A program made the position numbers and the translations under genes. Under the pieces are notes generated by a model. That model had not been told where the DNA came from and did no database searches. It saw only the letters and a program-made list of their open reading frames with translations. A stretch of 64,000 nt of DNA, taken from the NCBI GenBank assembly GCA_950295325.1, contig OX485808.1, forward strand, positions 27,610,527 through 27,674,526. Direction: 5' to 3'. This DNA is from Polytrichum commune (Eukaryota > Streptophyta > Polytrichopsida > Polytrichales > Polytrichaceae). The stretch's first letter is position 1. The number at the start of each line of letters is the position of its first letter. Positions 17,140 to 46,230 of this stretch are shown in pieces.

Positions 17140-20100
17140 ATGGATGACTGGAACGACAACCCCGGGCCGGGGGCGTACACGATCAAAGACAGATTTGTGA
17201 AAGACCAAGCACCCGTGTACTCCATCGGCGCCCGGCTGAAATCGTTCAACAAGGCGGACCAACCCGGCCCCGGGACGTACAACCCGAAACCAGACAGCAA
17301 GGGCCCCGCGTACTCGATCCCGGGGCGCGGGGGCCGCCTCCGTGGCGACGAGAATCCTGGCCCGGGGACATACACCTCGGACGTGAAATCCACGAAGGTG
17401 CAGGCCCCCTGCTACACTATCGCCGGCCGGCTGAGCAGCTACGATGGCAACAAGAATCCCGGCCCGGGGACTTACGACGTCAAAAGGAACATCGACGGGC
17501 CGGCGTACAGCTTGGCAGGCAGGATCCGTGACGCGACGTCGAGCAAAACGCCCGGGCCGGGGACGTACAACAACACGGCGCCATCCGGGGCGCCGGCTTA
17601 TAGCATTGCATTGAGAGCCAACGAATCGAAAAGCCAGGATTCCCCCGGCCCCGGAGCGTATGATCCGAATGTTCATTCCTGTCAGCCCGCTTACAGCTTG
17701 GCCAAGCGGCTTGACAACAGCTACAACCAAGACAATCCCGGCCCGGGGACTTACAACACAGGTATATAACATGTTCAATTACACATTATATGTTGGGTCT
17801 TCGATAAGTTCTCTAAGAAAACATGAGGTTTTCTGGCGTTTGCTCTCAAGTTGCAGTGCACAAGGAAGGAGAGAGGGGAGGGGAATTGTTACCGCATTGA
17901 GCGTACCTCTCAATGAAGAGAAGGGAATTATCGTATACGAATGTTCCTCTAATTCATTCAACATGAAAGCCCTGAAATAGTATGTAGCCGGAGGTCATCT
18001 CTTTTGTTGGTTGATTTGACACCAAAATTAGTTTAGAGACGTTGAATTAGTCCAACTCGAGGTCATGTGAGATGATACGGCAACAAACCAATGGGGGACC
18101 TAAAGTTATTATCTTGGGTGGATGAGAGGTACGCTTGTATATGATAACTCCCTCTGTCTACTCTCAATATCCAACATAAAAACCCTAGAATAGTTTACAA
18201 TTCGGAAGTTAATTGTTTTAGGTTATAGGGACACCAAATTTTAGCTTTAAAGGCCTCGATTTAGCTTAGGTCAAGTCATTTGAGATGAATCGGCCACAAA
18301 CCTATAGGGTCAAGATTTTATGTTGGATGGATGAGAGGTACGATCGTATGCGATAATTTCCTCTCTCCTACAAGAAACTACACCGATTTGTCTTATTAGT
18401 GTAGGTTCCCACTTGGAATTACATGTTGCTATAGCTTTTTAATCAAAAATATCAGAGTGACTCTTGAAAATTAGCTAGTTCGACACCATCCTGATGTACT
18501 TTTAATCCCATGAGCCTTTCAGCTTCCCAGACTCCAAAATCAATTTCATTGCAATTCAATCCAACAAAAGGAGGGACCATTGACCTTAAAACCAAGGTCC
18601 AACCATTGTAATAGGAACATGACCTATTAGGCAACCAAATGTCTTCACCTTGGGTCTGAGCTCATGTCGTGTGAGGCAACGCCACGAAGTACAAAACCAG
18701 GTCGCAAAATCTAGCAGCTTGGTGCATTCACCACCAATTATAATACAGTTTATGAGTGCATCTACGGCAGTCTCAGAAAAGCGTGACCTTAGATGGATAC
18801 GTTTCTCTCTCTCTGCACCCACTTCCTGTATTATGATATGAAACACGCAATTACGGTGCAAAATGGCAAATCCAAATCGCACCATGGCCATTTTGCCTCA
18901 TAATTACAGGAGCTCATATGAATATCTTATTCACTGTCAAAGCAAAGATTCCCATGCTCATTAAGTGCTCATATACATCCCCATGTAATCATGTCATCTA
19001 CTGAGCCTAGAATGGTTATCATATTTTGAGCATATCATCCACATCCTCCAATCCTTGAGTTAATCAACACATGTCTTTTTGGTGCCAGTTCTTAGACCAC
19101 ACGTAACCACATACCGCTCAGACATAGGTACAGTCCAGATTACTCTTGTGTTCGATTTCGACTTAGTTATGAGTTTGAAACTCCATGTGTTCGTGTTGAG
19201 ACAGAGGGAATTGTCTTCTTACTTCAAAATTCAGCACAAGTGCTAATTAGGGCACCGAAGTCTTTCGTTGAACTTGAGATCTCATCATGCGGGTTATATC
19301 AGTCAAGGAAGCTAAAAAATTGCAAGGTGTTACGACAAAATAGCACCGAACATGGATGAGGTGTTAGTCCCATGAAGTTAGTCTTTTGGGATACTTGGAC
19401 TCTAAAACAGTGTCCCGGAAGGTTTCTGGGCATAATCGGTTGAGATCTTAGTGTTTCCAAAGTGCAACCGGCTTCATGTTGACATCCTTCCGTTTTTCAT
19501 TATTAATGTGGGGAATATTCTATAGATTGCTCTTAAATGATTGGTAATTTTCCTGAAGTCTTGAACCTCAACCGGTTATTTCTCAAACTCAACCGGTTCG
19601 GCTGTTACTAGCGGTCTGTTCTCCCCGTCCATTCCTCTGAAATCAGTGTTGGTCATTTCGAACACAGACAAGGCGGACCGAGGGCCGGCGTACAGCTTGG
19701 CGAAGCGGTACCGAGACGGCAACCGGGATGTTGGGCCAGGACCAGGTGAGTATGAGCCCAACTGTAAATCTGGCGCACCTGCATATAGCATTGCTGGTAG
19801 GACTCCTGGGTTGCCGGGTTCTGACAATCCGGGGCCGGGGGCATACAACCCAAGTGAGCGTCCGGGGAGTCCATGTTACAGCATCGCAGGCCGGTTCAAG
19901 TTCAGGCCGGGCGACAAGAACCCGGGGCCAGGGGCGTACGATCCGAAAGTGAAGTCCGGGGCACCGTGCTACAGCTTGACGGGACGGCCAACCGGGATCG
20001 GGGGTGACAAGAATCCGGGGCCGGGGACGTACGATCCGAATGTGCACTCGTGTGTGCCGGCATACAGTATCGCGCACAGGTTTGACGCGGCGAAGTCGCA

Positions 20101-21346
20101 AGATAGCCCCGGGCCGGGAGCGTATGAGCTCAACCGGAAGATTCCTGGGCCGGCGTACACGATCGCGGGGCAATTGCCTTCGCACAAAGGGGAGCAAGGG
20201 CCCGGTCCGGGAGCGTATGATCCCGATGTGCACTCGTGCGTGCCGGCGTATTCATTGGCGAAGCGGTTTGCGGATCGGGTGAGTGACGACCAACCCGGTC
20301 CGGGCACGTATAGCTTAAAATCCACGTTTAGTGGACCAGCGTACTCGATTCCCGGACGAGGGAAAGGCTTGCCGGATCAGGAGTTACCCGGGCCCGGGAC
20401 ATACAATCCGAAAGATCCTTCAGGCATGCCCGCGTACTCGATCGCCGGGAGGTTGGAGAGTCAGAAAGGCGACAAGACCCCCGGCCCCGGTTCGTATCAA
20501 CCTAATGTAAAATCCGGCGCGCCGTGCTATAGTATCGCGATGCGCGCGAACGACCATAAAGGCGACAACAATCCGGGACCCGGAACTTACAACCCCGACG
20601 TCCACAACTGCATTCCGGCTTACTCGATCGCCCACCGTTTGGAGGGCCCCGCTTACGACTCCGGCCCTGGCCCCGGGGCGTACCAGCTGAAAGCCTCCAC
20701 GGGGGAGGGTCCGGCGTACACGCTAGCCAAACGGCTGCAACATAACCACAACGAAGGGCAGCCGGGTCCGGGGGCTTATTCTCCAAATGTTGGCTCCGGA
20801 GCTCCATGTTACAGCATCGCGGGCCACCTTAAGCCCTCACAATCTTTTGTTGGGCCTGGTCCAGGTGAGTACCAGCCGAATGTGAAATCCGGTGCGCCCG
20901 CTTACAGCATGGGCGACCGCGCCCACGGCGTCCTTCCGCCGGACAACCCCGGCCCCGGCGCGTACAGTCCCAACACGGCCGGCGGCGCGCCCGCCTACAG
21001 CATCGCAATAAGGACGGAAACTAAGAACCGCAACAAAAACCCCGGACCCGGAGCCTACGATCCGAAGGTCAGGTCCGGCGCCCCCGCCTACAGTTTGACG
21101 GGGCGGGGGCAAGGGATTAGTGGCGACAAGAATCCCGGCCCCGGGACGTATGATCCCAACGTCCACAACTGTATCCCAGCTTACAGCATCGCTCACCGGT
21201 TCGCGGACTCCAAGTCGGCCGACAGCCCGGGCCCCGGCGCTTACAATGTGAGCCGCAAGATCCCCGGACCTGCGTTCACCATTCTCGGCAGACATCCCCG
21301 CAAACACATGAAACAGAAATTGCGACCGGGAGACGATTACAGCTGA
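17140..21346 (+). CDS. STPG/SHIPPO-repeat (ODF3-like) sperm-tail protein, two exons
   Basis: Model: join(17140..17761, 19668..21346), 2,301 nt, 766 aa. The donor is G|GTATAT and the acceptor CACAG|AC; the split GAC codon rejoins the reading frame as YNTDKADRGPAYS. The protein is almost wholly built of sperm-tail PG-rich units: I count 24 PGPG-x-Y motifs (7 in exon 1, 17 in exon 2), alternating with PAYS/PCYS-I-x-x-R segments. In animals and protists this family (ODF3/SHIPPO1, STPG) is tied to axonemal microtubules of cilia and flagella; here it probably serves the locomotory apparatus of motile sperm. The exons are much richer in G and C than the flanking DNA. The first ATG lies directly before the first unit. 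The 1.9-kb intron is filled with repeats. Long open frames on the opposite strand are shadows of the repeat composition. The number of exons upstream of the ATG is unknown. Confidence 0.93.
17762..19667 (+). other. Repeat-filled intron of the STPG gene
   Basis: The intron is GT...AG. It holds two tandem units of about 210 bp carrying the (T)GGATGAGAGGTACG motif (near 18125 and 18335, with a related GCGTACCTCTCA near 17900). An R1 copy on the minus strand follows at about 18815-19145, and a minus-strand copy of the AACCGGTT family at about 19380-19630. That last repeat ends only about 40 bases before the acceptor, so the branch point and part of the 3' splice region probably lie in or beside repeat DNA. 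Confidence 0.75.
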
Positions 21347-25262: not shown

Positions 25263-26739
25263 ACAAGGATTACATACATGTGACTTTTCAACTTGGACAT
25301 GCAGACCAGTGCTCCACCTACTCTACATTTGAGGTTCAAATGTTAGCTTTCCCAACAGTGCAAGCGTGTGAGAGATATGAATAGGAAATGGCGATTATCA
25401 ATTGGAAGAATGGGGAATTAATGGCCAAAGTGGTGGCCAAAGGGCAGATTTTCTGGCCTAATGGAGCGAAAAACATGAGAAATGTCATGAGTTATTTCAT
25501 CACATACGTTTCACAAGTGTTATACTAGGAGGCTCCATCATCCACTTCCTGCAATGTAATGATCCACCAAGCATATCTCACTACGAGAATACATAGGTCT
25601 CGATGACACGGTCCAAAATGACCATAATAACTTCGTTTCAATTAGCCATGCTTGGAAGGGGGAAACAAAACAAAACAAAAAAAACAAAAAAAACAAAAAC
25701 AAAACAAAATTGATACAAACATGTTTCTTCCAAGCCAATCTAAATTCATACACAATGTCATTTTGATCATTCTCAGGATGTGTCATCTAGACCCATGTTT
25801 TCTTACAAGGTGACTCAATAGTGCATCATCATGAGGCAAGAAGAATCGAATGTTTCACGAAACGAAATTTGGGTAAGCCACAGTTGAAATTCAATCAATC
25901 TTGGTGTTTTTGTCGTGGATGTTCACATGATGTGTGCATTGCTATAAATCACTAAAAGAAATCTTATAATTCATGTGTACACACAAACTTTCAAGACACA
26001 AGACACACTTGCCCTCAAAACGGAGCAGCATTTGCAATGGAAAGGGCGCCCATGTCGGTCAACATTAAACATTGGTTAAGAAGCATAAGTATTGTGTTTT
26101 TGAGCACTTTTGGTACTATAAACATCTTGAAAACTGTAGATTTTATTTTAATATATTTTTTTCCTTCAAAGTGAAATCGAATACCTAGGGTTTATGGATG
26201 TTGACCCATGCTGTAGAAAATTTACTTCCACTTAGTTCAAAAATGATCAACATTTGAATTCAAACTGTAGTGGTTTAATCCAGAGCGCTGGTGGAGAAGT
26301 TCGATGATGTGTTGAAAGGACCTCGAAACCGGAGAATTGGGTGCTCAAATTCTGATATGACCAAGGTGAGAATTACCGTGCAACCAGCGCACAATGTGTT
26401 AACTTCATGTTTTTCAATTGCATGGTGAATGTGGAAGATGTTGTGGCTGGATTTGAGTTCAATGATTTGTGGCTGCCTTCAGCCATATCTTTGATCAATT
26501 TTAGGTTTGTAGGTGGCATGGAAATTAAAAACTTCGTCGTAGCAAAGTGGTCATTGAACTTGGCTGCATTGATTGATTGCACGAGTGGTCAACCTGGATC
26601 AGGAATCTCATTACTCTGATTTTGAGACAGTCACATAAATTGTTTAGAAAGCTTCAACCAAAATTTAAGAGAATCTCATAAGCGGGAAGATCTGTATTTC
26701 AACAATCTCCACCATGAAATCTTGTGTGCCGGAATGTAG

Positions 26740-26752
26740 TTTTTGTGTGTGG
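26740..26752. repeat. Left target-site duplication of the LINE
   Basis: TTTTTGTGTGTGG, identical to 34377-34389. It fixes the left border of the retrotransposon. Confidence 0.85.
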
Positions 26753-26816
26753 AATCAAACAAACAGGAATCACCATACCCGCTATACCTAACCTTTTTAC
26801 CACAACCAAATTTACA

Positions 26817-29800
26817 ATGATAATATATCTAAAAATACATATGAAAAATCCCAGAACACTTCATTCCTATGGTTACTACTTCATTGACAAACTTGAATTG
26901 CTAAAAGGCGGAGACATCAAGCCCAACCCAGGACCAATGCCTAACATCCTCCACACACATCCTACAACACACAAAAGAAGAGCAAACACTTACTTCATTC
27001 CAAACACCATAAAACTACAACCTGAATACCAACACATCGCAAATACATTTGCCCCCATTCTACAAAACACACACCCACTACACCCCCAAGCAATAACAAC
27101 TTACCCGCATTTACACCAATATACACAAACACAAAGCCAATCACCACCCACACATATGCTCTATGCTCTCATCATCACCATCCACCCCTCAATAGACACA
27201 TGCAATAACATACTAGCCCAACCTCAACATTACCATTTTAACAACATTTGGACTAACACTTTGATTATCAGACTAGCTAACCTCAACAATCCACCTGAAA
27301 GGCACATATTGACACCTCACCCCTACACCACATTCGTGGAAAATAATCAAGATATAATACACCCAAAAAATTCAATAAACACAGAATTATATGAATTCAT
27401 ACATAACCGAGATGTTACACCTACATTAGCCACCCTTCAAAATAAATTTCCCTTCCTCCCAAGTCAATTGCTCAAGGAAGCACTCCGATGCCTAGAAAAC
27501 ATCAATGAATACTCACACCCACCACCACCATTAGATATTCCCGCACCAATTCCAAGAACCAACACCGACATCGAACACGAAACCAACATCATCACATGGA
27601 ATGCGTCGTCACTCAACACATCATTGCCAAACCTACAAAATCTAATCAACAATTCACTAAATAACACAGCAATCATACATATTCAAGAAACCAAACTAAC
27701 TGCAAACAAATCCACAAAATACATACAAAACTTATTTCCAGAATTTAAACTCACTTTTAACAACACACATGCTCTTACAAGATGCATACAACAAAGAATG
27801 CCTTCTACCCCCGGTAGAGGAGGCTTACTTACACTCATCCACAATAAATATGCATTCCCTGGAAATATCACCAAAATTCCCACGCCAGCAAATATCTCTC
27901 CATATCTACAAATAATCAAAATAAATAACCACCCACTAACACCCTGGATAATCATACACATGTATATGCCTACACACTTAGAAGACACGTGTCTTATCCC
28001 ACACCTTAAGAACGAAATCACTAACGAAATCACTATCCATCCCAATCACATATATACATTATGTGGTGACTTTAACCGAGACATCGCACTTACGGGCAGA
28101 CAAAATAACAACATTAACACCCTTCCACAAGAAGAAGACTATCAATGGAAAAATTTCACCGCATCACTCAACCTGGAATATATCCCAACTAACACTACTT
28201 TCTCTAGACAAGGAGGCTATAATTATACATCAACAAGTCTAATAGATGGATTCTACATCCACTCGCCAGACAACAGCAAATTCATCTCTACTACTAACAC
28301 CAACATGAATCTAAACTCAGACCACTACCCAATTGTCCTACATATCCCCCATAACACCCTTATAGCCAGACCCCCGCCTCCCACAAACACGCCACCTACT
28401 AGAATCCTAAATCCAATCCCACCAGAAAACATCGAAAAATTCAACATAATATTCTTCGAAGAAAATTTCACACAAATCAAGACACTTACCACATTACTAG
28501 AATCCCACCAACACTTAAGTCCAGATCTATGGGCGGAAGCTTGCACAATATTTGACCACATTGTACATAAAATCTCAGAAACAATTGAAAAAACTTGTAA
28601 AGCAGACCCACTACCCAATCTTACGAATAGAACAACCCAACAAGGTGGATTTTTGCCACGAAAACTAGCCAGAAAATGGAAACAACACCTAAACACATAT
28701 CACCTCATCCGGAAAACCATATACATTGCACAACACGACCCACTTTGGCAAGCGCACCCCATCCTCAACGACATACGTAACCACCAAAATACAAACATCC
28801 CACTTCCACCCGTTACAATGATACCTCCTACCGAATGGATTGAAACCATTGCAACCATCGCCAAAAATGCAAATAAAGCAGCCAGAAAAATTACCACAAA
28901 ATATACCAAAAATTGTATTCTAAAAGCCGTATCAAAATATCGTCAAATGTATGAAAAAACCCCCAAAAAGATAAATCGTAAAATCTTCAAGAATACTGAA
29001 ACCTCACCACTTGACTTCATCATGGATAGGCAAAATAACATCCTAACTAACCCAGAAAATATCGCATCAGAAATTTACACGCAACAATCCATTAGTAACC
29101 GCCCTACAGTCCCCACATGTCACTATAACAATAACCACCCACTACACTGCACATGTGGAGTCCGGCAATACCCATGGCACGATTTAGACGGATACACAAT
29201 CGACAGACGAGGCGAACCCCAAACCCCCTTACACACGTACTTTGACCAACAAACATACGACCTCTACCTTAAAAATCTAAGTAATAACAAAGCCCCCGGC
29301 CCAAACAAAATACCCAATTCCATTCTAAAAAACATGCCGCCACGCTTTCACAAATTACTCTTTCTATTCTTTAAACAATGTTATAAACAAAAACAAATCC
29401 CCGCATCGTGGAAAACTAGTCTCACAGTTTTACTATACAAAAAAGGTGACCCGTCACAACTAACAAATCACAGGCCTATTGCACTAGCTAACACCATATA
29501 TAAATTCTACACGAGTACACTAACATCTATCCTATCAGCATATGGAGAAAAACATCAAATCCTACACGATAGTCAAGAAGGGTTTAGAGCTGAGAGAAGC
29601 ACTTCTAGACAAATTCAATTATTAATCGCAGCGCTTGAAGACGCACGATTCACGAACCAAGATATATACATTCTCTATATTGACTTCAAAAATGCCTTTG
29701 GCTCTATTGATCACGCCAGACTCTTAGCAATCATGAAGGATCTAGGCTATCCTACTGACTCCATAAACCTCATAGGAAACATATATTCACAATCATCAAC

Positions 29801-32800
29801 CATATTCATTGGAGAACACTTCGGCAAAACCCTACCAATCCCCATACAAAGAGGCACAATACAGGGCGACACACTAAGCCCGTACCTCTTTATCATATTC
29901 CTTGAACCCCTCCTTCGATGGCTCCAACAAGGAAACAATGGATATACTTTTGGTACATCTAAAGTTAAAATCTCATCAGCAGCCTATGCCGATGATCTAG
30001 CAGCAATCGCCAATAAATTAGAGTCACTACAAACACAACTCACCAAACTAGACAAATTCTGTACCTGGGCTGGAATGGACCTTGGAATACCCAAATGTGC
30101 CGTGACTGGGTGCCCAAATAAATCCAAACTCCACCCCATAACTTTCAAAGCCCTAATCCAAGCCTCCAACATCAACTACAGAAACCAACCCCTACCAGTC
30201 TTAAACCAACATGAACCATACACATATTTAGGAATCAATCTTGCACCGTCACTCAAATGGAAAACACAAATAAATACCACTACAGCTAAAGTAACTAAAC
30301 AATGTCAAGCCCTCATAACATGCCCAGCTACTATGAAACAAAAAATAAATATGGCAGATACAGTCATCCGGGCGGGAATAGCATATAGCTTCTATGCAGT
30401 GCCATACTCCATACCATCCATCAAAAAACTTGATAACAAAATAATCGCACTTCATAAAATAATTTGTGGAATACCCAAATGTACATCTAACATCACTACA
30501 CAACTCCCACACAACCTATTCGGAATTGAAGCATTCTCACTACAAAATGCCTATTTAAGATGCATTGGCGAACAACTACAAAATGCCCTCAATGATAAAG
30601 GTCGACTTGGGAAAATCTATGTTGGCCTACTTCAATTCATACTCGCCAAATATGGTGGATCTAAAGAAATCACCTGCATCAGATACCATCATTGTGTCAG
30701 ATCACCCATCACTAGAACATTGTTCCTACTCAAGCACAAAGCCGGAGTCCACCTAAAAAGTACAATAAATAACTTCCTCTTAAACCCCTCCCCACTAGAA
30801 ACCGCATGGATGCAAGAAACACAAATACTTCACGAACTAAGCCCCCACCTCTCACTTAAATTACTAAATAAACTACTAGTGCATAATATAACCACACTCG
30901 ACCAAATTACAATGCCTAATGGTACCACCCTCATGAACCCAGACGAATTCAAAATTTACCACTCCACCCCTTCTAAACTCCTCCAAAGCGCACTCCACAT
31001 CGCTAACCAATTATTTTGCCACCCCCCTTGTAATCACTGCCCCATGCCATGTCAACAACATCATCCGCCAAGATCTCTAAAAAACAAGTACATTATTCGA
31101 CACCATAACATCCTACCTCAACCACCGAGCAACCCCGTACACCACACCCACCGCCCCATCCCCCACCTACCCCCTCCCCCCAGCAACATGCTTAAAGACC
31201 CCCGACAATTCCCCATACAAAAAATCCTCGATCACAAACAAAAACAATCCAACGACCATAATGGAATAAAACGGACAGTTACGTCATATTTGTGCCAATG
31301 GACCACAACAAATAATTACACATATAACAAATGGCGAACACAACGAGACCTTTATCCTTACTGCGAAACCAACATATGTAACCACAACACCGATTTACTT
31401 ATCCAGTATTACAAAGAAAGGCAACACCAACAATTCTCAAACATCATCAATGCCTACTTCTCCACAGAACAACATAGGGACACAAGGTTTGTCACACCAA
31501 CCACAACAATCCCACTAGCTCAAATCTCTATTAATGAATGTAACCCAGAAAACGACATCGAAACAAACTCGGATACCATACAAATACAATTCGATGTTGC
31601 CCACATATACGAGGACAACGGCCGGCATCTCATTACCATCCCGAAAACCCGGCTATTGTGGCTATGGAAACAATACCAACTGGCCAAAAATACCACACAC
31701 GGTCTAGAACCCTCTACTCAGGCATTCGAAACTGAAATTGTTTGGTTATACCAAAGGTATAAATACCGTATCCCAAAAAATGACACGCTCAAACGAGCCC
31801 AGTACACAATACCAACCCCAATACTAGACCTCCTAATTACAACATTCAATATTAATCATTCATATTTCTCGTCCCCAGTTACATGTCCCATACAATTCAG
31901 CCAATTCTATTCACCATTCTCGCGAGACGTAATATTTGGATCCCTAGGTAAAGCGTTTGACCACAAATGGCAAGGACTCGGATACGCACACCCCCATAAC
32001 ACAACAGACTTACAACAAGCTATTCATTGGGCCCGAATGGCGGCCCAAAACGATCCACATACAATCACTATACTTATTTCCCCCGACACTGATTGGTACC
32101 AAAACTCCAACCCGCACATAGGCCCATTTCCAGACACACATGTCATTGCCCATTTTGCCGCTGATACGCTCACCTATGAGGAACCCACAATACCCCCCGA
32201 GCTCAATATCCCCAGGAAAGAGCCATCTACCATACAAATATTCTGCATCCATCACCAAAGCAATACCATTGGCACCCTTGAACAAATGAAACTAATACAA
32301 GAAATATCAAACAACCTCCACATACCTCAGAGCCACACACAAATTGCACCACCCACCCCCCCAAACACCACCGTTAACCCTAGTAAAAAATGGGCTAAAT
32401 CAAACTACCCAAATCCATACATACACAATAATATCCCTATCCCACAACTTCCAGACTACCAAACAAATTTACCCCTAAAATTCCACCCACAATTTAGTTA
32501 TTACACGGATGGTTCATTCATAAAACCCTTAGAAATTGCCCCTGGGGTATGGAGAAGAGAAAGAGCTGGTTACGGCATCTACAGCCCCAAAGGCCTAAAC
32601 ATTGCCAAAAGACTCCACGGGCATCAAAATATACTACGTGCTGAAATGATGGCCATACACAAAACATTAAGAATCGTCAACACACAATTCCCTAATGAAC
32701 CCGCCTTTATATTCACAGATAGTCTAAATGTCTTATACTTACTCAACACACAAATTAAACACCCCACTCTCCATAATAGCCACCCAGACCAAACCACACT

Positions 32801-33041
32801 TAACTCCATGGTAAAAATCCTTCAAAACCGCACACAACCAATCACACTATACAAAGTTAGAGCACACGTCAACATTGACGGTAATGAAAAAGCCGATAAA
32901 CTAGCAAAAATGGGATTAGAATTAGAACACAGAAACGCCCGTCACCCATACGAACATGCCCACGCAACCCCGTATTACTACCAAAAGATATCTGGGCCTC
33001 GATGGATGAAGTCCCAGACAAAGGCCCAGTCAGATTCTTAG
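26817..33041 (+). CDS. LINE polyprotein: 2A-like, APE, RT, PCIF1-like domain, RNase H
   Basis: 2,074 aa from the first ATG inside the target duplications; the open frame extends upstream to a GTG at 26724, but that lies in host DNA. A 2A-like GDIKPNPGP is at residues 32-40. The APE endonuclease spans about 255-510: Asn262, Glu291 in QETK, GDFN at 417-420, SDH at 501-503. The reverse transcriptase spans about 820-1095: Asp956, GTIQGDTLSP and YADD at 1057-1060. A Cys/His cluster lies near 1400. A domain like PCIF1 methyltransferase lies at about 1630-1860: an SSP..C..QFSQFYSPF stretch from 1685, FGS.G..FD, and AHPHN at 1724 where PCIF1 has NPPF. RNase H spans about 1893-2045 with Asp1898, Glu1943, Asp1968 and Asp2027. 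The frame ends 16 codons after a point where the -1 frame takes over plausible coding. Confidence 0.88.
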   Translation: MIIYLKIHMKNPRTLHSYGYYFIDKLELLKGGDIKPNPGPMPNILHTHPTTHKRRANTYFIPNTIKLQPEYQHIANTFAPILQNTHPLHPQAITTYPHLHQYTQTQSQSPPTHMLYALIITIHPSIDTCNNILAQPQHYHFNNIWTNTLIIRLANLNNPPERHILTPHPYTTFVENNQDIIHPKNSINTELYEFIHNRDVTPTLATLQNKFPFLPSQLLKEALRCLENINEYSHPPPPLDIPAPIPRTNTDIEHETNIITWNASSLNTSLPNLQNLINNSLNNTAIIHIQETKLTANKSTKYIQNLFPEFKLTFNNTHALTRCIQQRMPSTPGRGGLLTLIHNKYAFPGNITKIPTPANISPYLQIIKINNHPLTPWIIIHMYMPTHLEDTCLIPHLKNEITNEITIHPNHIYTLCGDFNRDIALTGRQNNNINTLPQEEDYQWKNFTASLNLEYIPTNTTFSRQGGYNYTSTSLIDGFYIHSPDNSKFISTTNTNMNLNSDHYPIVLHIPHNTLIARPPPPTNTPPTRILNPIPPENIEKFNIIFFEENFTQIKTLTTLLESHQHLSPDLWAEACTIFDHIVHKISETIEKTCKADPLPNLTNRTTQQGGFLPRKLARKWKQHLNTYHLIRKTIYIAQHDPLWQAHPILNDIRNHQNTNIPLPPVTMIPPTEWIETIATIAKNANKAARKITTKYTKNCILKAVSKYRQMYEKTPKKINRKIFKNTETSPLDFIMDRQNNILTNPENIASEIYTQQSISNRPTVPTCHYNNNHPLHCTCGVRQYPWHDLDGYTIDRRGEPQTPLHTYFDQQTYDLYLKNLSNNKAPGPNKIPNSILKNMPPRFHKLLFLFFKQCYKQKQIPASWKTSLTVLLYKKGDPSQLTNHRPIALANTIYKFYTSTLTSILSAYGEKHQILHDSQEGFRAERSTSRQIQLLIAALEDARFTNQDIYILYIDFKNAFGSIDHARLLAIMKDLGYPTDSINLIGNIYSQSSTIFIGEHFGKTLPIPIQRGTIQGDTLSPYLFIIFLEPLLRWLQQGNNGYTFGTSKVKISSAAYADDLAAIANKLESLQTQLTKLDKFCTWAGMDLGIPKCAVTGCPNKSKLHPITFKALIQASNINYRNQPLPVLNQHEPYTYLGINLAPSLKWKTQINTTTAKVTKQCQALITCPATMKQKINMADTVIRAGIAYSFYAVPYSIPSIKKLDNKIIALHKIICGIPKCTSNITTQLPHNLFGIEAFSLQNAYLRCIGEQLQNALNDKGRLGKIYVGLLQFILAKYGGSKEITCIRYHHCVRSPITRTLFLLKHKAGVHLKSTINNFLLNPSPLETAWMQETQILHELSPHLSLKLLNKLLVHNITTLDQITMPNGTTLMNPDEFKIYHSTPSKLLQSALHIANQLFCHPPCNHCPMPCQQHHPPRSLKNKYIIRHHNILPQPPSNPVHHTHRPIPHLPPPPSNMLKDPRQFPIQKILDHKQKQSNDHNGIKRTVTSYLCQWTTTNNYTYNKWRTQRDLYPYCETNICNHNTDLLIQYYKERQHQQFSNIINAYFSTEQHRDTRFVTPTTTIPLAQISINECNPENDIETNSDTIQIQFDVAHIYEDNGRHLITIPKTRLLWLWKQYQLAKNTTHGLEPSTQAFETEIVWLYQRYKYRIPKNDTLKRAQYTIPTPILDLLITTFNINHSYFSSPVTCPIQFSQFYSPFSRDVIFGSLGKAFDHKWQGLGYAHPHNTTDLQQAIHWARMAAQNDPHTITILISPDTDWYQNSNPHIGPFPDTHVIAHFAADTLTYEEPTIPPELNIPRKEPSTIQIFCIHHQSNTIGTLEQMKLIQEISNNLHIPQSHTQIAPPTPPNTTVNPSKKWAKSNYPNPYIHNNIPIPQLPDYQTNLPLKFHPQFSYYTDGSFIKPLEIAPGVWRRERAGYGIYSPKGLNIAKRLHGHQNILRAEMMAIHKTLRIVNTQFPNEPAFIFTDSLNVLYLLNTQIKHPTLHNSHPDQTTLNSMVKILQNRTQPITLYKVRAHVNIDGNEKADKLAKMGLELEHRNARHPYEHAHATPYYYQKISGPRWMKSQTKAQSDS
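26910..26936 (+). other. 2A-like ribosome-skipping motif
   Basis: Codes for GDIKPNPGP, matching the D-x-E-x-NPGP consensus except Lys in place of Glu. Similar motifs occur at the N-termini of some animal and trypanosome non-LTR elements. If it works, it would release a short N-terminal peptide from the polyprotein. The Lys change may weaken it. Confidence 0.6.
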
Positions 33042-33958
33042 AAAAACAAATTAAAAAATACGATCGGGAGACCAATATCGCAATCATGGCCACACAAACC
33101 CCCAACACGTGCAAATGGACAGAAAATGTAGACATAAACAAAGAAATGTCAAACGACTTCTGGACAAATCCCTTAATCGCAGACAAACAAAAATCATGCC
33201 TTATCAAATTCCGCACAGGCACCTACATGGGTAATGCAAGGAAGCAAATGTTCTTCGGCAATCAAAGATACCCCTCTATTACATGTCCCATATGCAACTC
33301 AAACGACCCAGACACGTGGCTACATGTACTACTTAAATGTAAGCAACAACATATACATGCACTCAGAGTTAGAAGACATAATAAAGCAGTAGCAGAAATT
33401 CGTAAACTTCTAATTTCGTCCGAAAAATCTAGATGTTTTATTCTCATGAATGCCGGTACCTTCAATAATAATCCCCAAGAAAATACTGTCCCTAATTGGC
33501 TCCTCCCATGCACATGTAACACACAAAGATGCCACTGCAACGCAAGATTTCGACCTGATATACTCTGCGTTAAAGGTCTACCATATCAAAATGTCCCACC
33601 CACTGATACCGACCCTAACCTCACTATACAATTTATTGAATTCACATATTGCAACGATAGATTCTCCCGAGAGGCAATAGAGGCAAAAACTAACAAATAC
33701 AAACCGCTACTTGATAGTCTTGTTTCTAGAGGTTGGAAAACTGAACCACTTATTGTCATTACCGCTGGGGCCAGAGCTACCACCCACACCCCCTCTATGA
33801 AAATACTCGAAGACAAACTCAAAATACCCACGAATCTCATTAAAAATACGTTTAAAGATATCAACTCCATTGCAATACACTATGCCATGTCTATCCTCCT
33901 ACATAAAAGGAGAATAGAAAATCACCAACCGCTTCCCCAAAATCTAGACCCTCCATAA
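33002..33958 (+). CDS. LINE C-terminal part: CCHC knuckle and restriction-like endonuclease, -1 frame
   Basis: 318 aa counted from the first ATG, overlapping the upstream frame by 40 bases in the -1 frame. The frame is also open upstream of that ATG, and its reading (PKDIWASMDEVPDKG) looks coding, so it is probably the severed C-terminus of the polyprotein rather than a separate ORF. A zinc knuckle C-x2-C-x9-H-x4-C is formed by C95, C98, H108 and C113. A second Cys-rich patch lies near 170-180. It is followed by RPD (P185-D186), then Glu213 in FIEFTY, then K229-x2-K232-Y233. This CCHC, PD, E/D, K-x-x-K-Y order is that of the restriction-like endonuclease of R2/CRE-type LINEs. It would be the second DNA-cutting activity of the element. 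Confidence 0.75.
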   Translation: MDEVPDKGPVRFLEKQIKKYDRETNIAIMATQTPNTCKWTENVDINKEMSNDFWTNPLIADKQKSCLIKFRTGTYMGNARKQMFFGNQRYPSITCPICNSNDPDTWLHVLLKCKQQHIHALRVRRHNKAVAEIRKLLISSEKSRCFILMNAGTFNNNPQENTVPNWLLPCTCNTQRCHCNARFRPDILCVKGLPYQNVPPTDTDPNLTIQFIEFTYCNDRFSREAIEAKTNKYKPLLDSLVSRGWKTEPLIVITAGARATTHTPSMKILEDKLKIPTNLIKNTFKDINSIAIHYAMSILLHKRRIENHQPLPQNLDPP

Positions 33959-34376
33959 CTCAAACTACCAAAACATTTAATCTCTACCTAGCAGCTCAAG
34001 ATAAGGGATTGGTGTCGGTTGGCTGGTACTAATTTCCTGCCTTTTTATCACTTGCAACATCAAATCATGATCTACATATATGACAGTCAAACGGGGATCG
34101 AACGGGGGCCGTCTTATCTCAACATCCTCCCACAACCAACCGAGGACTCATGACTTGATGAACACCCGTGCAACTAATTCCCTAATTATACAAACCCCGT
34201 GGGCCAAAATGGACACGGTTATTATTTACTGGCTACTATAGTGTCCATCCTCGAAAGGGGAGAGTAGTTTTGTCCCAGCTTCCCCATGTCCTGTGGGCAT
34301 CGGATTGTTGGCATTACGAACGGACACTCTATTCACGCCGGTCCCTAAACGGGACCGGAGTTACTATCTATCTATC
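33959..34376 (+). other. LINE 3' untranslated region
   Basis: 418 bases from the stop codon to the right target duplication. Unlike the coding part, it has a normal share of G. On the minus strand, 34090-34150 contains GTTCGATCC, a tRNA B-box match, with an A-box-like TTGGTTGTGGGAG about 30 bases before it. The end carries the hairpin and tail listed separately. Confidence 0.6.
34338..34376 (+). promoter_or_regulatory. 3'-terminal hairpin and ATCT tail of the LINE
   Basis: CCGGTCCC (34338-34345) and GGGACCGG (34351-34358) form a perfect 8-bp stem with the loop TAAAC. It is followed by a short ATCT-type tail ending exactly at the target duplication. A 3' stem-loop before a short tandem tail is the recognition signal for the reverse transcriptase in several stringent LINE types; the same role is inferred here. 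Confidence 0.6.
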
Positions 34377-34389
34377 TTTTTGTGTGTGG
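34377..34389. repeat. Right target-site duplication of the LINE
   Basis: TTTTTGTGTGTGG, identical to 26740-26752. It fixes the right border of the retrotransposon. Confidence 0.85.
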
Positions 34390-38542: not shown

Positions 38543-38614
38543 GGGGTATTGGGAGAATTGAACTCCCGACCTCTTGCACCCTAAGCAAGAATCATACCAC
38601 TAGACCAAATACCC
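38543..38614 (-). tRNA. tRNA-Pro(AGG), copy 1
   Basis: 72 nt including the discriminator C. The 7-bp acceptor stem GGGTATT/AATACCC is perfect, the A box is TGGTCTAGTGG, the anticodon stem CTTGC/GCAAG carries loop TTAGGGT (anticodon AGG), and the B box is GTTCAATTC. A TTTTT Pol III terminator lies about 24 bases downstream. No intron. It decodes CCU, and CCC or others through wobble. Confidence 0.93.
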
Positions 38615-38774
38615 ATTTATTCCGAATACATGCTTCATGTACATGTTCTCATGCGTTATAAACTGTCCATGTTTAGATTTTCTTTTTCTTGCTTTTGCAA
38701 AAGGGATTTATGAAGTGTTCTATTAAAGTTCCCTTTTTCTTTGGAAAAAAAGGACTCTTTTATACTCCATGGTT

Positions 38775-38846
38775 GGGGTATTGGGAGAATTGAACTCCCG
38801 ACCTCTTGCACCCTAAGCAAGAATCATACCACTAGACCAAATACCC
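38775..38846 (-). tRNA. tRNA-Pro(AGG), copy 2
   Basis: 72 nt, identical in sequence to copy 1 (38543-38614). A run of seven or more T on the minus strand lies within 30 bases downstream. The flanks repeat those of copy 1, so the two genes arose by tandem duplication of a unit of about 232 bp. Confidence 0.93.
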
Positions 38847-38959
38847 ATTTACTTCGAATATATGCGTCATACCCATATTCTCATGGTTTATAAAGTGTCC
38901 ATGTTTAGATTTTCTTTTTCTTGCTTTTGTAAAAGAGAGGCTCCTCCAATCACAACTTC

Positions 38960-39031
38960 GGGGTATTGGGAGAATTGAACTCCCGACCTCTTGCACCCTA
39001 AGCAAGAATCATACCACTAGACCAAATACCC
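38960..39031 (-). tRNA. tRNA-Pro(AGG), copy 3
   Basis: 72 nt, identical to the other two copies. The downstream T run is shorter (CTCTTTTAC), so termination may be less efficient. It is the first of the three in the direction of transcription. Confidence 0.92.
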
Positions 39032-40003: not shown

Positions 40004-43000
40004 TTATAATGAAAGAAGACAGGATGAGCTGACCACAATTGCAAGTGCAGCAGTAAAGAAAACTGCATATAATCTCAAAGTGCTAAAAGATGACGTGGAC
40101 CCACTAGTGCCAGGCGTACTAGAAGAGGGCGGCGAGGTTGAGTTGGAGGGGGAAGAGGAGTTGGTGGAGGACGAGGAGGAATTACTTGCCTTTATCCCTA
40201 TGATAAATTTGCAAGTTCCTACCGAAGGATCTGTGGTGGTAATCTGTGCCACCCCTTGAAAATTGCAGGCTAGAGGGTTTTGGTCGTTGAACTGGTAGTA
40301 ATTGTTGAAGGCATATGAAGCGTTCTGCGCCGAGGTTAACCCCGAACAACTGCCTCCATTTTGTAATGGTGTACAATCTCCACGGGAACATGCATAGTCT
40401 ACATTTGTTGCCAATAGTGATTGGTCTGCGGAAGGGTTTAAGACACACCATTGACTTGGATAGTAAACAACATTTTGAGCCGCCACGAGCTTCGTTTGTG
40501 CAGAAACACCACCTGCAAAGAACCCCAACACATAGAAATAAATTAGGGTTGAAGGGTTGAGGTGTGCAAGAAAATGACTGCAGAACACATAGAGAGCCAC
40601 AAATTCAAGATTTAGCGTTTAGAGACTTTGTTCATTGAACAACATTAATGGAGTTAGAATCACTAGGTGGCAAGTAAAGCAGGTGTCAAACACTTGTTGC
40701 TACATACCAAGTCATGAAGACAACTCTAATTAACATGACACCAATTAGGGTTCACGGGATTAAGGTTTGCAAGGCGATGACTGCAGAGCACATACAGACA
40801 CAAAATCATAAACAGATACATTGGTATTTCATGCTAGACATTACCATAGTTCATTGAATTGTTATCTAGGGCTTCAGGGTTTAAGGATTGCAAGAAAATG
40901 ACTGCAGAACACATTCACAAACACAAACAGATATTTTGGTATATAACAGGCTAAACATGTCCATATTTCATTGGGATGTTGTTTAGGGTTGAAGGGTTTA
41001 AGGTTTGCAAGAAAAAGAACAAAGACAGGGTTTAGGGTTCAGATTTTGTTCATTGACCCACATTAAATGTGTCATGATTAATTGTTCATTTACCATTAGG
41101 TGGCAATTAGAGAGGGTGTCGCAACAGTTGTTGGTACATAACAAGTCATGAAGACCACTGTTGTTAACATGACATACCAATTTTGATGCCACTACATCAG
41201 ATGTGCAGAATAGAAAACAAATATCAGGGTAGGATATAATAAAATCACATGTACACATCAAACAGTGATGATGCTGTGTTGAAATACCAACTCACTGAAA
41301 TTGGATGAGTTGTTACAAAGTAGAAAATGAACCCAAAATTTGAATTGAATCACAAACTTCCGTTGCGGTAGAAATTTCACTCATAACCGACTATCACGGA
41401 CACCTGAATCGGTGATTTAATGACAGTGCACTCAAAGACATCAAAATTCCTAGAAACATGCTGAAAGAATTTGAATTTAACCCACCCGTAAGTAAGATCC
41501 AAGAGATATTTAATGCTCTATTTTTGCATCAACTCACCGAATTTGATGAATATGTCCAAAATTGACCATGAACTCTTTAATTTCAAATTGAATTAACAGC
41601 TAACCCAATCAATCACCATGCTAGCCCATGAAATTGGATGATTCTTGATGTCACACTGCCCAACTCATTAACACGTGCACATTCAAGTCGAATGACCACA
41701 TGTTGAATGTCAAGTTGGAGGTCTAAACGATTGTTGGAATATGCACATGTTAAAATCTAAACTCAAAGATATCGTCATGAAAAACACATGCTACTGAAGC
41801 GAATTTGGAAGTTGATTTGTAAGTGACACACCTGTAAGATCCAAGGGATACTTCAAGGAGCCATCGTAGTTGAAAACACCCCAATGTCGTTCAAATGGCC
41901 CGGGCAAGGTACTTTTGGCATCCTCGTCCAACAAACTGAACAGATATCCCTCGATCTGAGTATTGGGACGCAGCGGAGTTCCACCACCACCCAACATATG
42001 ATTCACAAGCTGCTGATTAAACCTTTGGGCTAAGGTGACATTTGCATAAACAGTTCCATCCGTAGGCCATCCAATTTCCCCAACAATAATCGACATGTTA
42101 GGGTAACCCCCAGCGGTCAAAGCCGTCACCAAACCATCGTAACTTGCATCAAAAACATTGGTGTAAGTAAGGGTCCCATCGTGTACAGGGTTCGCTGTGC
42201 CCGCAAAAAAGGCATAGTCAATTGGGAAGTTGGCGTTCTGGTATAAACTAAGGAAGGGGTAGAAGTTGATGACGAATGGGGAGCTTGTTGTGGCCAGTGC
42301 TGCAACAATCTGCATCATTAGGGTTGCCAGGTCTGATCGAAATGTCACTTGGGATGGATATGTTGCGAGGGATAGTACGTCTGCGTTGCAAGGGACCACT
42401 GCTTTCACTGTTGTTGACAGTCCTGCTGCTGCTAGGGCGGATTGAATGTTCTGGAGTGCAGGTAGTACGAGGTTTTGATAGCGGCCTGCGTAGCCGTCCA
42501 AAAATGGCTCGTTTCCAACGGCTGCGTACCTGGTAGAGTCAGCAATCTCAGTTACTTAGTACAGGAGGAAGTTGGTGGGAAACCCTAATTGATCATTTAT
42601 GCGCTTGGTTGATCAAGCCAGTCTCCAATTTCGGAGAAGAGAATTCCGTTGAGGACTGACATCAATCTCACATTCCTTACCCCATCGCTCTTAGGTTAAG
42701 AATTCAGAATTCCCACAAGCATTCACACTCATCTCCCACATCAACCTTCCTTATTTCCTTTCTCCCATAAAACTGGGAGTAAATCCAGATGATGACTGAG
42801 AATCATCGGTAGTAGTAATTCTACAGACAACCCACATCAACCATAATATCTAGGCCCACCACTATTGGGTTGACACTCACCTCCCACGTCAACCTCTCTC
42901 TCTTTCCCATGTATAACCTTTAAAACAAAGAATTCTACAAGCAACCCACATCCACCTAAATCCAGAGTTACACAAACCCCCAAACTCAACTGCCACATGA

Positions 43001-44876
43001 AAGCCTTCTTTCTTTCATTCTCTAACCTAATCTAACCTAACCTAGGTGACTGAGAATTCATTCCCGCACCGAGAACCCCTCAATGCCATCACTCTTATGG
43101 TTAAGTCCAGGATTCCACAAGTCTTCACTTTCATTTCCCAATCACCATCTCCGAGCTCTGAGTCGACCTTCCAAGAGAAGGTCTGTTATTTTCAAATTCA
43201 ACAATGTCTGACATCGATCGCCCTTTGTGTTAACTGTACTCCGGTGTTTCTTTGGGTTAATTTGGCCCAGGTAACCGATAAATCACCCCCTCTTAACTCC
43301 CTCTCGCCGCAGCCCGAACAATTCTCGAAGCTTTCTAGGTATGGAAATCCAGAAGTTGGACTCGACCTACCCAAGAAATTAGGACTTCGAGTTCGGAGAC
43401 TACACAAACAGAAGACTATTCGTGACGAAGAATGCCATATTGCCTGTCCCCATAGTCGACTCAATGCAAGTCGCCCTTTACCTCCACGACACTAGATAAT
43501 TCAGAGAAACATTAACCTGCAAACTACTGTCCCTCCCCATCAATATGCCTGGTGGAATCCACAAACTTTCATTGAGAGCGTTACGAATCCTCAATCGTAT
43601 GAGCAAATGTAAAGTGGATTTCTATTCTCAAAAGCCAGACATCACAAGGCATAAGGATACTAATCAAAGGATAATTCGCTCAACCTGTCTCCACATTGGT
43701 TCCTGAACTGGACCGAGAGTGAGCAAGCCAATAATGAAAAAGCTCCGATAGCTTGTGGGAGTCTTCAAAGAACAAAGCTCTCGATCTGCAAACCTCACAA
43801 TATTTAAAGCTCTCGACCGAATTCTTTAGTGTTAAGGGGGCCTTAGGTTAAACCCAACCAAGGGACTGAGAATCATCCCCAAACCAAAACTTCTCGAAGC
43901 TGCATACGTAAACACAGGCACCTCCTCCGAACCTACTCGACCTACCCACAGAATTAGGGCTTCCTACAAAACTCAAACACAGATTCCAATACTCGAAAAG
44001 AGAAGAATGCAACATTGCAGCCTTCTCGGGCCAAACCACTCCATCAATGCAATGAAACCAAACCCCACCTACATCTGCCTCCTAGGAAGATTCTGGTGAG
44101 ATTTGAAAGCTCAAGTGTAAAGTAGAGTAGAATAAGAGGCTCTGAACCGCCAAATGAGAATACGCTTAACTTTCTTCAGGCTCTTGTTAGGACAAACCCA
44201 ACAAGGCGAGTGAGAATGGCCCCATTCTCGAAATTTACTCGACCAACCCACAGAATTAGGGCTGAACACAGAACTTCGAAGCCTAAACCACACACAGATT
44301 CCATGAATCCAAAATGAAGGGGAATCCAACATTGCCTTCCGGAGCCATGGCCAAAACAAATCAGTGGGAACTCACTCAATCAATGCAATGCAATGAAACC
44401 AACCCCCATTCGCTTAGATCAAGAACTTGCAAAGATCCTGGCGAGAATTCTATGAGATAAAAATGAATTTCTGATGTTTAACCAATTACTTACTTGATGT
44501 TAACCCCTCCGGTGCCGAGATACTGACTCACATTCTGCTTCACCCACGCGGTAGCAGCATCCACACTGCCAGCTAACCCCGCCAACATGTCGTTGGTGCA
44601 CGACACCATCACCTCATTGCTGGTCCCCTTCATCGACTGAATTACGTTCGGATCCGCGTCGAACAGCTTCACTTTGGTGAGGCTGTTGTCTTTCAGCAAC
44701 TGCACCACCACCGAGTTTGGTAGCGGATTGTATGACACCGTCCCCCAGTTCACCCCCAATGCCTCCGCAGCTTCCCAACTACTACTGCTACTCATCAATA
44801 TCATCATCACCATCGCCAATACTGCGACATAAAATCCCCTCATCCCCCCGGCTTCCATGTCTATCAGTACTATCAC
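40004..44876 (-). CDS. GH17 beta-1,3-glucanase with X8 (CBM43) domain and GPI signal
   Basis: Model: complement(join(40004..40512, 41832..42529, 44494..44876)), 1,590 nt, 529 aa. Donors are GTAAGT and GTGTGT, both acceptors end in CAG, and the codons across junctions rejoin as NIKYAAVGNEPF and DLTGGVSAQTK. A hydrophobic signal peptide (about 12-38) precedes the GH17 domain (LGVNWGT onward, about 40-360). The proposed acid/base is Glu135 in VGNEP and the nucleophile Glu279 in VGEIGWP. The X8 domain (about 381-465) has WCVLNP and six Cys. A Ser/Thr/Pro-rich linker and a hydrophobic C-terminus predict GPI anchoring. The family hydrolyses callose at the cell wall and plasmodesmata. ATGs at codons 1, 7 and 12 are all possible starts; I chose the first. 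The protein looks complete. Confidence 0.92.
40513..41831 (-). repeat. Repeated unit in GH17 intron 2
   Basis: A motif of the form AGGGTT..GGG.TTAAGGTTTGCAAG followed by ATGACTGCAGA.CACAT recurs near 40545, 40748, 40868 and, in part, 40985. The first copy abuts the acceptor of exon 3. A GGTGGCAA...GTGTC....GTTG.TACATA..AAGTCATGAAGAC stretch also occurs twice (40668, 41099). Old local duplications; splice sites are intact. Confidence 0.7.
42530..44493 (-). repeat. Degenerate triplicate in GH17 intron 1
   Basis: CTCGACC(T/A)ACCCA.(A)GAA(A)TTAGG followed by ACACA-rich sequence and GAATGC/GAATCCAACATTGCC occurs near 43362, 43935 and 44235. The intron also holds open frames such as 43046-43495 that have no motif. 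Confidence 0.6.
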
Positions 44877-46230
44877 TATAGGAATTTTCCCAAAATATGG
44901 AAAAATGGCTGCCGAATCTCAAAATCTCAAAAATGATGTGACCTGTGTAACACCGTTTTTGAGGTTGAGATTGAGTTTTAGATGCCCCTTCTGCTCCTTG
45001 CAGATTTGGAGGCAGCTGCCGAATGAGGTGCTGAAGAAAATAACATTGGGATTTTGTGTAGGCTCAGAATGGAAAATTAAATCAAGTGGCAGCAGGGAAT
45101 GATTGAATGATTCAATCAATCAATCAACCCAAAGCCAAGGGGGTGCATTCCACCAACAATGTCGGCCAAGATGATGGATGATGATCCACCAACCTAACCT
45201 TCAGCCTCAAGGCAAAGAAATTGCACTTCACTCTTCCCAATGAATCTCCCCACACTCAAACATCCTCACACACAATGACCCCATACACCTCAAAATGGCC
45301 CCTTGTACTTGAAATCAAAAATGCTCACTCTCAGCGGAGCTCAGACATCAAATCGATCAAACTTGACGAGTAGCTAGATGTTGGGGAGGCTCTTTCTCTC
45401 TAAACAAAGTTGCTTCCTTAAATGCTTCTTCGTCCTCTTCCTCCTTTCACGTAATAACTAAGCTGAATCTGCTCCCCGGGCAACGAAGGAGCAAATTTTC
45501 TGCCAAAAATCTCCCCTAATAAGTTCGCAATCCAAATGCTCGCAATCTCTCCCCACAACTCACAAATCCTCACACACGACACACTCCACCCACAAATCGC
45601 CACTCTAAAACCTCCCCCCAGCCAAATCCAAATGCTCACTCACTCTAAAAAGCTAGCAGCTCACAATAATGAGCTTAGACCGCCTACGGCTGCAAACAGA
45701 CAAACACACACACACACACACAATAAAAATAAAAATAAGCAAATACAGTGAGAGACTTTGTTTAGGATCAAACTCGTTGTAGAGCTGCTTCCCGTAACGC
45801 TTCTTCTAAGTTTTTTACTTCACCAATCTACCAGGTGTTTTGCTTCACAAATCTCCAAGTTTCTACAGTAGTCTGATAAGTTTGTGGGCCACCAATCTGG
45901 TAAGTTTTGTGCTGGACTAATCTACTTAAGTGACCTGGTGCCGCGTCCTAGGCTCACTTACTAGGATTGGTGTGCCCAACGACACAATGGAAACATAGAA
46001 TTGCTAAATGCGAGCTACAGACAGAGAGGAGTGCAGTAGCATAGAGATCGATAGATCTAATAAGTAGCTGATAAGTATTGGAGGATGAAATTTGAGCGAG
46101 GCGGCAGGTCGCACAAAAAGGTGGGCGATTCCTGCCAGGGCCAGCCTGGGGTGGGGTGGGGTGGGTTAGCTACGCTGCCGCCTCTTGAATCTGCCTGAGT
46201 ACACGGAGTTCCCTAATTAGTGTGGGCTCC
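44877..46230. other. Intergenic upstream of the GH17 gene
   Basis: Presumed promoter and 5' leader of the GH17-X8 gene. From about 45180 to 45750 the plus strand is rich in A and C, with a (CA) microsatellite at 45703-45721. No further gene is recognised. Confidence 0.45.

Follow-up and report, generated by a model that had tools for sequence, protein, structure and literature searches.

A PCIF1-family methyltransferase domain with a replaced catalytic motif in a Dualen/RandI-like LINE of Polytrichum commune

The window analyzed here, a stretch of 64,000 nucleotides of the Polytrichum commune genome (contig OX485808.1, positions 27,610,527 to 27,674,526), contains a long interspersed nuclear element (LINE) whose polyprotein carries a methyltransferase domain of the PCIF1 family between its reverse transcriptase (RT) and RNase H. 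Homology and fold show that the domain belongs to this family. Our best explanation, which taken as a whole we hold to be rather probable, is that the PCIF1-type domain is a standing part of the polyprotein across a clade of Dualen/RandI-like LINEs, land plant and Haematococcus members included, and that the form found in the window is now a non-catalytic binder of nucleic acid.

The main open reading frame (ORF) of the element (26724 to 33041, plus strand) encodes 2105 amino acids (aa), in which a Pfam scan found RVT_1, PF12237, and RNase H matches in that order. The features of this part are as follows.

29442..30242, plus strand: reverse transcriptase, aa 907 to 1173 (PF00078, E 4.1e-29)
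31566..32312, plus strand: PCIF1-like methyltransferase domain, aa 1615 to 1863, between RT and RNase H
31863..31886, plus strand: active-site loop, YFSSPVTC where PCIF1 has CFASPLNC, with the loop Asn replaced by Thr (alignment to PCIF1)
31986..32000, plus strand: catalytic loop, AHPHN where PCIF1 has ANPPF (alignments)
32496..32918, plus strand: RNase H, aa 1925 to 2065 (PF00075, E 2.3e-12)

A preliminary description, made from the sequence, had proposed a PCIF1-type methyltransferase fold inside a retrotransposon polyprotein at this position, and both the fold and the position between RT and RNase H were borne out by the two analyses that it had suggested. The profile search matched PF12237 at aa 1656 to 1751 (E 1e-10; 41.9 bits against a cut-off of 31.1), and a structure predicted without templates (model starting at aa 1585; predicted local distance difference test score [pLDDT] 79.5, predicted template modeling score [pTM] 0.80) shows the PCIF1 Rossmann fold, superposed by VIA-align over human PCIF1 residues 417 to 668. 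Pfam names this family PCIF1_WW, and the match in the window's ORF is to its methyltransferase part. A WW domain did not appear when the 2105-aa ORF was searched with Pfam at an E threshold of 1; this search, confined to the window copy, listed RVT_1, RNase_H, and PCIF1_WW alone.

The domain is widespread in the genome of origin and among related elements. In the 408 Mb of the assembly (64 contigs) there were 697 candidate PF12237 matches, and all 150 of those scored were over the cut-off. A database search with the RT part (best 120 of 141 proteins, 119 of them new) yielded 71 proteins out of 119 in which a mixed profile detected the domain at E up to 1e-3. We built an RT tree of 102 rows, in which one group of 78 contains the window element together with 65 of the domain proteins; the other six domain proteins had RT matches too short for the tree. 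Eleven of the 12 domain-free rows in this group end before the point at which the domain starts in their nearest relative, and the one exception (P0131) extends to that place with only a weak partial match. In none of the 24 rows outside the group was the domain found; 9 of them continue beyond the RT match for longer than the median spacing of RT match and domain (514 residues), and 6 for longer than 1000 residues. At a lax threshold, 16 of these 24 rows and P0131 gave no convincing cryptic domain. Three Haematococcus rows (P0185, P0189, and P0207) lie inside the group, all with the domain at 48 to 59 bits, as does a Parachlorella row (P0133) whose sequence is too short for the domain. A Pleodorina match (P0190) stands outside the RT tree, and scorpion and ant matches are more distant RTs. 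No relatives were found among viral contigs, and the single match in phage records, at E 7, is a chance one.

The catalytic motif had been described as degraded, and in the window copy both the Asn and the Phe of ANPPF are indeed replaced. We compared 69 genome sequences, comprising the window and 68 fetched loci (L002 and L012 denote the same place), each with a domain match. AHPHN occupies the ANPPF place in 49 of them, AHPHT in 11, and AHPPN in 4, while GHPYN, AYPHT, AYPHN, AHPYN, and AHPNN occur once each. Among window-type database proteins (n = 121, that is, P0002 plus the best 120 of 310 matches), the residue at the place of the PCIF1 Asn is His in 97% and Tyr in 3% of the 119 that are readable at the motif, and the loop Asn is replaced by Thr in 87% of the 121. 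H1756 and C1721 are kept in 97% and 98% of these proteins, respectively. Active NPPF relatives, the existence of which had been raised as a question, did not turn up: NPPF is absent from the 69 genome sequences, the 119 readable window-type proteins, and the readable ones of the 71 relatives from the RT search (P0194 is unreadable at the motif and P0183 readable in part).

The form nearest to NPPF is NPEY, which was found in 21 of the 71 relatives and in none of the genome sequences; HPPF, HPPE, NPPS, and SPPF also occur among the relatives. The NPEY domains are divergent (median identity 33%, n = 21). All 21 keep the loop Asn, versus 12 of the 50 other rows (Fisher p 6e-10, kinship ignored), and all 21 keep the F, the G of FG, the D, and the P, residues that persist in 43, 47, 47, and 45 of the 50 non-NPEY rows. 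Enzymatic activity may persist in the NPEY forms.

Purifying selection acts on the domain about as strictly as on the two nucleases, despite the loss of the canonical catalytic residues. By the Nei-Gojobori method, the ratio of nonsynonymous to synonymous substitutions (dN/dS) in the domain is 0.06 to 0.19 in 10 of 13 pairs among eight copies (pairs that share branches), the other 3 pairs being saturated. Elsewhere in the ORF, it is 0.04 to 0.14 in the RT, 0.05 to 0.19 in the apurinic/apyrimidinic (AP) endonuclease-like region, and 0.04 to 0.18 in RNase H, with 0.06 to 0.42 in the stretch before the domain and 0.21 to 0.56 in the short linker after it.

We postulate that an ancestor of these elements carried an N6-adenine methyltransferase site, which the NPEY forms still approach, and that catalysis would have been lost in several lineages. 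In the lineage of the window, the domain would then be a pseudoenzyme that grips nucleic acid during target-primed reverse transcription. The simplest ligand, situated between RT and RNase H, would be the template RNA or its hybrid with cDNA. The domain thus conceived probably does another job than methylation, such as binding RNA. The preliminary description had suggested cap recognition, and this part of it found no support, whereas the PCIF1 fold, the replaced motif, and the kept domain stood. In PCIF1, the m7G cap is held by the helical domain (PMC10544176), and since our alignment begins at human residue 417 and runs only to 668, cap binding is unsupported.

Several observations weigh against this explanation. 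Support for the 78-row group in the Shimodaira-Hasegawa-like approximate likelihood ratio test (SH-aLRT) is only 82, and because only 9 of the 24 rows outside it extend beyond 514 residues, absence of the domain there is shown for few. An ancestral NPEY ties with the alternative when gains and losses cost the same (9 versus 9) and is favored only if gain is costlier than loss (13 versus 17, 18 versus 26). The link between NPEY and the loop Asn is not significant in tree-independent pairs (4 informative pairs, supported branches). The low dN/dS is not specific to the domain, because the RT, the AP-endonuclease-like region, RNase H, and even the stretch before the domain have low values too and the whole ORF is constrained, and a pure scaffold would give an identical selection signal. 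NPEY, with Glu in place of Pro, may itself be inactive. In Drosophila PCIF1, a His for the Phe of NPPF “could explain” the absence of N6,2′-O-dimethyladenosine (m6Am), but the honey bee also lacks m6Am and its Phe-to-Tyr change is thought an unlikely cause (PMC9479742).

An alternative hypothesis holds that, in NPEY elements if not in all, the domain functions as an N6-adenine methyltransferase and modifies element RNA (next to the cap or internally) or new cDNA, with the HPH forms representing losses. In favor of this, NPEY retains the Asn and an aromatic residue across 21 divergent rows and is accompanied by the loop Asn in each of them, and Dam-like adenine methyltransferases are known in DIRS elements and cytosine ones in LINEs (PMC5890265). 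However, no readable sequence has NPPF, NPEY is missing from 50 of the 71 relatives and from all 69 genome sequences, and NAAF, human PCIF1 with both prolines changed, served as a dead mutant, as did APPA and SPPG. We regard such an enzyme as possible but unlikely. A pure spacer, a scaffold separating RT and RNase H with no binding of its own, strikes us as slightly less likely still. The site between two enzymes would suit a scaffold, fold residues persist while catalytic ones drift, and selection is not stronger than on the other domains; nevertheless, loop residues for which a spacer has no evident need, H1756 and C1721, are kept in nearly all window-type proteins.

Two further readings concern the origin of the likeness itself. 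That this one plant element recently captured a host PCIF1 gene is highly improbable: homology is all that speaks for it, while the domain occurs across the RT clade, Haematococcus rows included, and the best match of a human PCIF1 fragment in the same genome is another LINE copy. That search gave 231 candidates, of which 150 were scored. The best (L069), together with L070, L071, L001, and L002/L012, proved to be LINE copies or remnants. With the rest not checked singly and genes matching exon by exon only, this search does not establish that the genome lacks a host PCIF1. Chance likeness, or a Pfam artefact in a C- and A-rich frame, might be argued from the GC skew between 26 and 34 kb (-0.30 to -0.42) and from direct searches of PCIF1 in the PDB, in which the single window sequence reached only E 0.036 and 0.089 with phmmer and a window-type profile E 0.015 and 0.067, an unrelated chain following at 0.1. 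The evidence, including the template-free predicted structure with the pLDDT and pTM scores given above, refutes this reading, and we give it virtually no credence.

Dualen/RandI elements, described from Chlamydomonas and other green algae, are the nearest known system. They share with the window's element a restriction-like endonuclease combined with what is in the window copy a putative AP-endonuclease-like region, the RNase H, and a 3′ tail of short repeats, and they differ from it in that the window's element is abundant in a land plant and has a 2A-like motif. The named rows in the RT clade of the window's element are Parachlorella and Haematococcus. Dualen/RandI elements with both endonuclease types were already known (PMC4640811, PMC3636483), the group occurs in all Chlamydomonas relatives compared (PMC8226300), and RandI 3′ ends in green algae are (ATT)n and (CTATTT)n (PMC3747384). 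A PCIF1-type domain is not mentioned for the group in the portions of the literature examined, and none of the listed titles and abstract openings of open-access papers paired PCIF1 or PF12237 with transposons, although automatic Pfam annotation already flags the domain in many database proteins. Elements described by de Mendoza et al. in 2018 (PMC5890265) likewise carry methyltransferases under purifying selection, but these are Dam-like adenine enzymes in DIRS and cytosine (C5) enzymes in LINE, DIRS, and Gypsy elements rather than PCIF1-type ones.

Compared with PCIF1/CAPAM itself, the cap-specific m6Am methyltransferase (PF12237; PDB 6irv, human, and 6irx, zebrafish), the window-type domain has HPH[N/T] for NPPF, no WW domain by Pfam, and a place inside a retrotransposon polyprotein. 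PCIF1 of Drosophila, an animal lacking m6Am, likewise carries a His within NPPF (PMC9479742); that is a host gene changed at the Phe, while in the window's LINE both Asn and Phe are replaced. PCIF1 has been described as confined to eukaryotes and was omitted from a methyltransferase tree for long-branch attraction (PMC8868631). The many divergent retrotransposon relatives deepen the family and supply a natural series of replacements at its active site. Should the NPEY forms prove functional, LINEs would possess an adenine writer; should they prove inactive, the elements illustrate what use a methyltransferase fold retains once catalysis is gone. We speculate, with considerable doubt, that the LINE clade has its own PCIF1-type adenine methyltransferase, working in NPEY forms to mark element RNA or fresh cDNA, and that several lineages, including the HPH type of this plant, turned the writer into an RNA-binding module. 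If so, a transposon family would record the repeated conversion of an epitranscriptomic writer from enzyme to binder.

The remaining features of the element are as follows.

26756..34377, plus strand: LINE copy, 7.6 kb (blastn comparison with other copies)
26740..26752, plus strand: 5′ target-site duplication copy, TTTTTGTGTGTGG (exact 13-base repeat flanking the element)
34377..34389, plus strand: 3′ target-site duplication copy, TTTTTGTGTGTGG (exact 13-base repeat flanking the element)
26910..26936, plus strand: 2A-like motif GDIKPNPGP, read in translation (GDIEPNPGP in another family)
27579..28403, plus strand: AP-endonuclease-like region, aa 286 to 560 (motifs ITWN, QETK, GDFN, and SDHYP, by eye)
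33002..33958, plus strand: C-terminal restriction-like endonuclease region, out of frame with the main ORF in the window copy (CPxC..H..C, RHN, RPDI.., and E motifs also present in relatives)
33959..34376, plus strand: 3′ untranslated region (UTR), with the final three TATC units at 34365 to 34376 (sequence; end common to other copies)

The 13-base repeat flanking the element fits target-primed reverse transcription, as expected. The 3′ end consists of short TATC repeats, of which other genome copies have more than the window's three, and has no poly(A). The window LINE is 99.6 to 99.7% identical (blastn) over 7.6 kb to L009, L010, and L011, 83 to 87% identical to L013 through L016, L018, and L022, and 67 to 68% identical over the main stretch to L012 and L025.

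The 5′ end of the window copy lacks upstream sequence present in longer copies. The window insertion (at 26756) and that of L010 (at 1562) start at identical bases (AAACAAACAGG) with different target-site duplications, and copies 99.6% identical continue at least 1.3 kb upstream of the AAACAAACAGG start, partly in open frame. This common start may reflect short and long forms of the element or an internal promoter. Just inside it sits the 2A-like motif GDIKPNPGP. The sense strand of the element is very G-poor from 26000 to 34000, with GC skew at the values given above, and a TCGAAC block in the 3′ UTR (34085 to 34112) resembles, by eye, an antisense tRNA B-box.

In the N-terminal part, the four motifs assigned to the AP endonuclease are presumably those of that enzyme family; PF03372 gave no match in the ORF of the window copy at an E threshold of 1 and did match the relatives P0126, P0134, and P0143. 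A break near 33000 in the window copy leaves the C-terminal region in a second frame (32900 to 33958), whose 318 aa have no Pfam match, whereas in P0002 and in some other genome copies the ORF runs on into this region unbroken. When 240 proteins were searched with a profile of the C-terminal region (window copy plus P0002), 51 matched at E up to 1e-3; these include P0002 itself, and the matches of P0062, P0093, P0112, and P0121 are limited to the first 59 positions of the profile. The series CPxC..H..C, RHN, RPDI, and E, which we assume to be that of an R2-type restriction-like endonuclease, is readable with slight variation in 22 of the 26 rows compared, although the final portion is missing from P0144.

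Related polyproteins contain other domains, namely, a PHD finger and OTU-, Ulp1-, and Josephin-like proteases, some below the Pfam cut-off. The N-terminal parts of P0125, P0126, P0143, P0190, and P0205 have differing cysteine proteases of these three kinds, the OTU matches being under the cut-off. P0170 combines an NPEY-form PCIF1-like domain with a piece of a C5 cytosine methyltransferase (aa 2004 to 2077) and a PHD-like finger below the cut-off.

Elsewhere in the window, sperm-tail PG-rich (SHIPPO) repeats make up two long ORFs at 17101 to 17769 and 19565 to 21346 (plus strand), and GH17/X8 genes lie at 40004 to 44918 (minus strand). Such a gene content probably indicates a land plant whose sperm swim. 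The minus strand also has three tandem tRNA-Pro (AGG) genes at 38543 to 39031.
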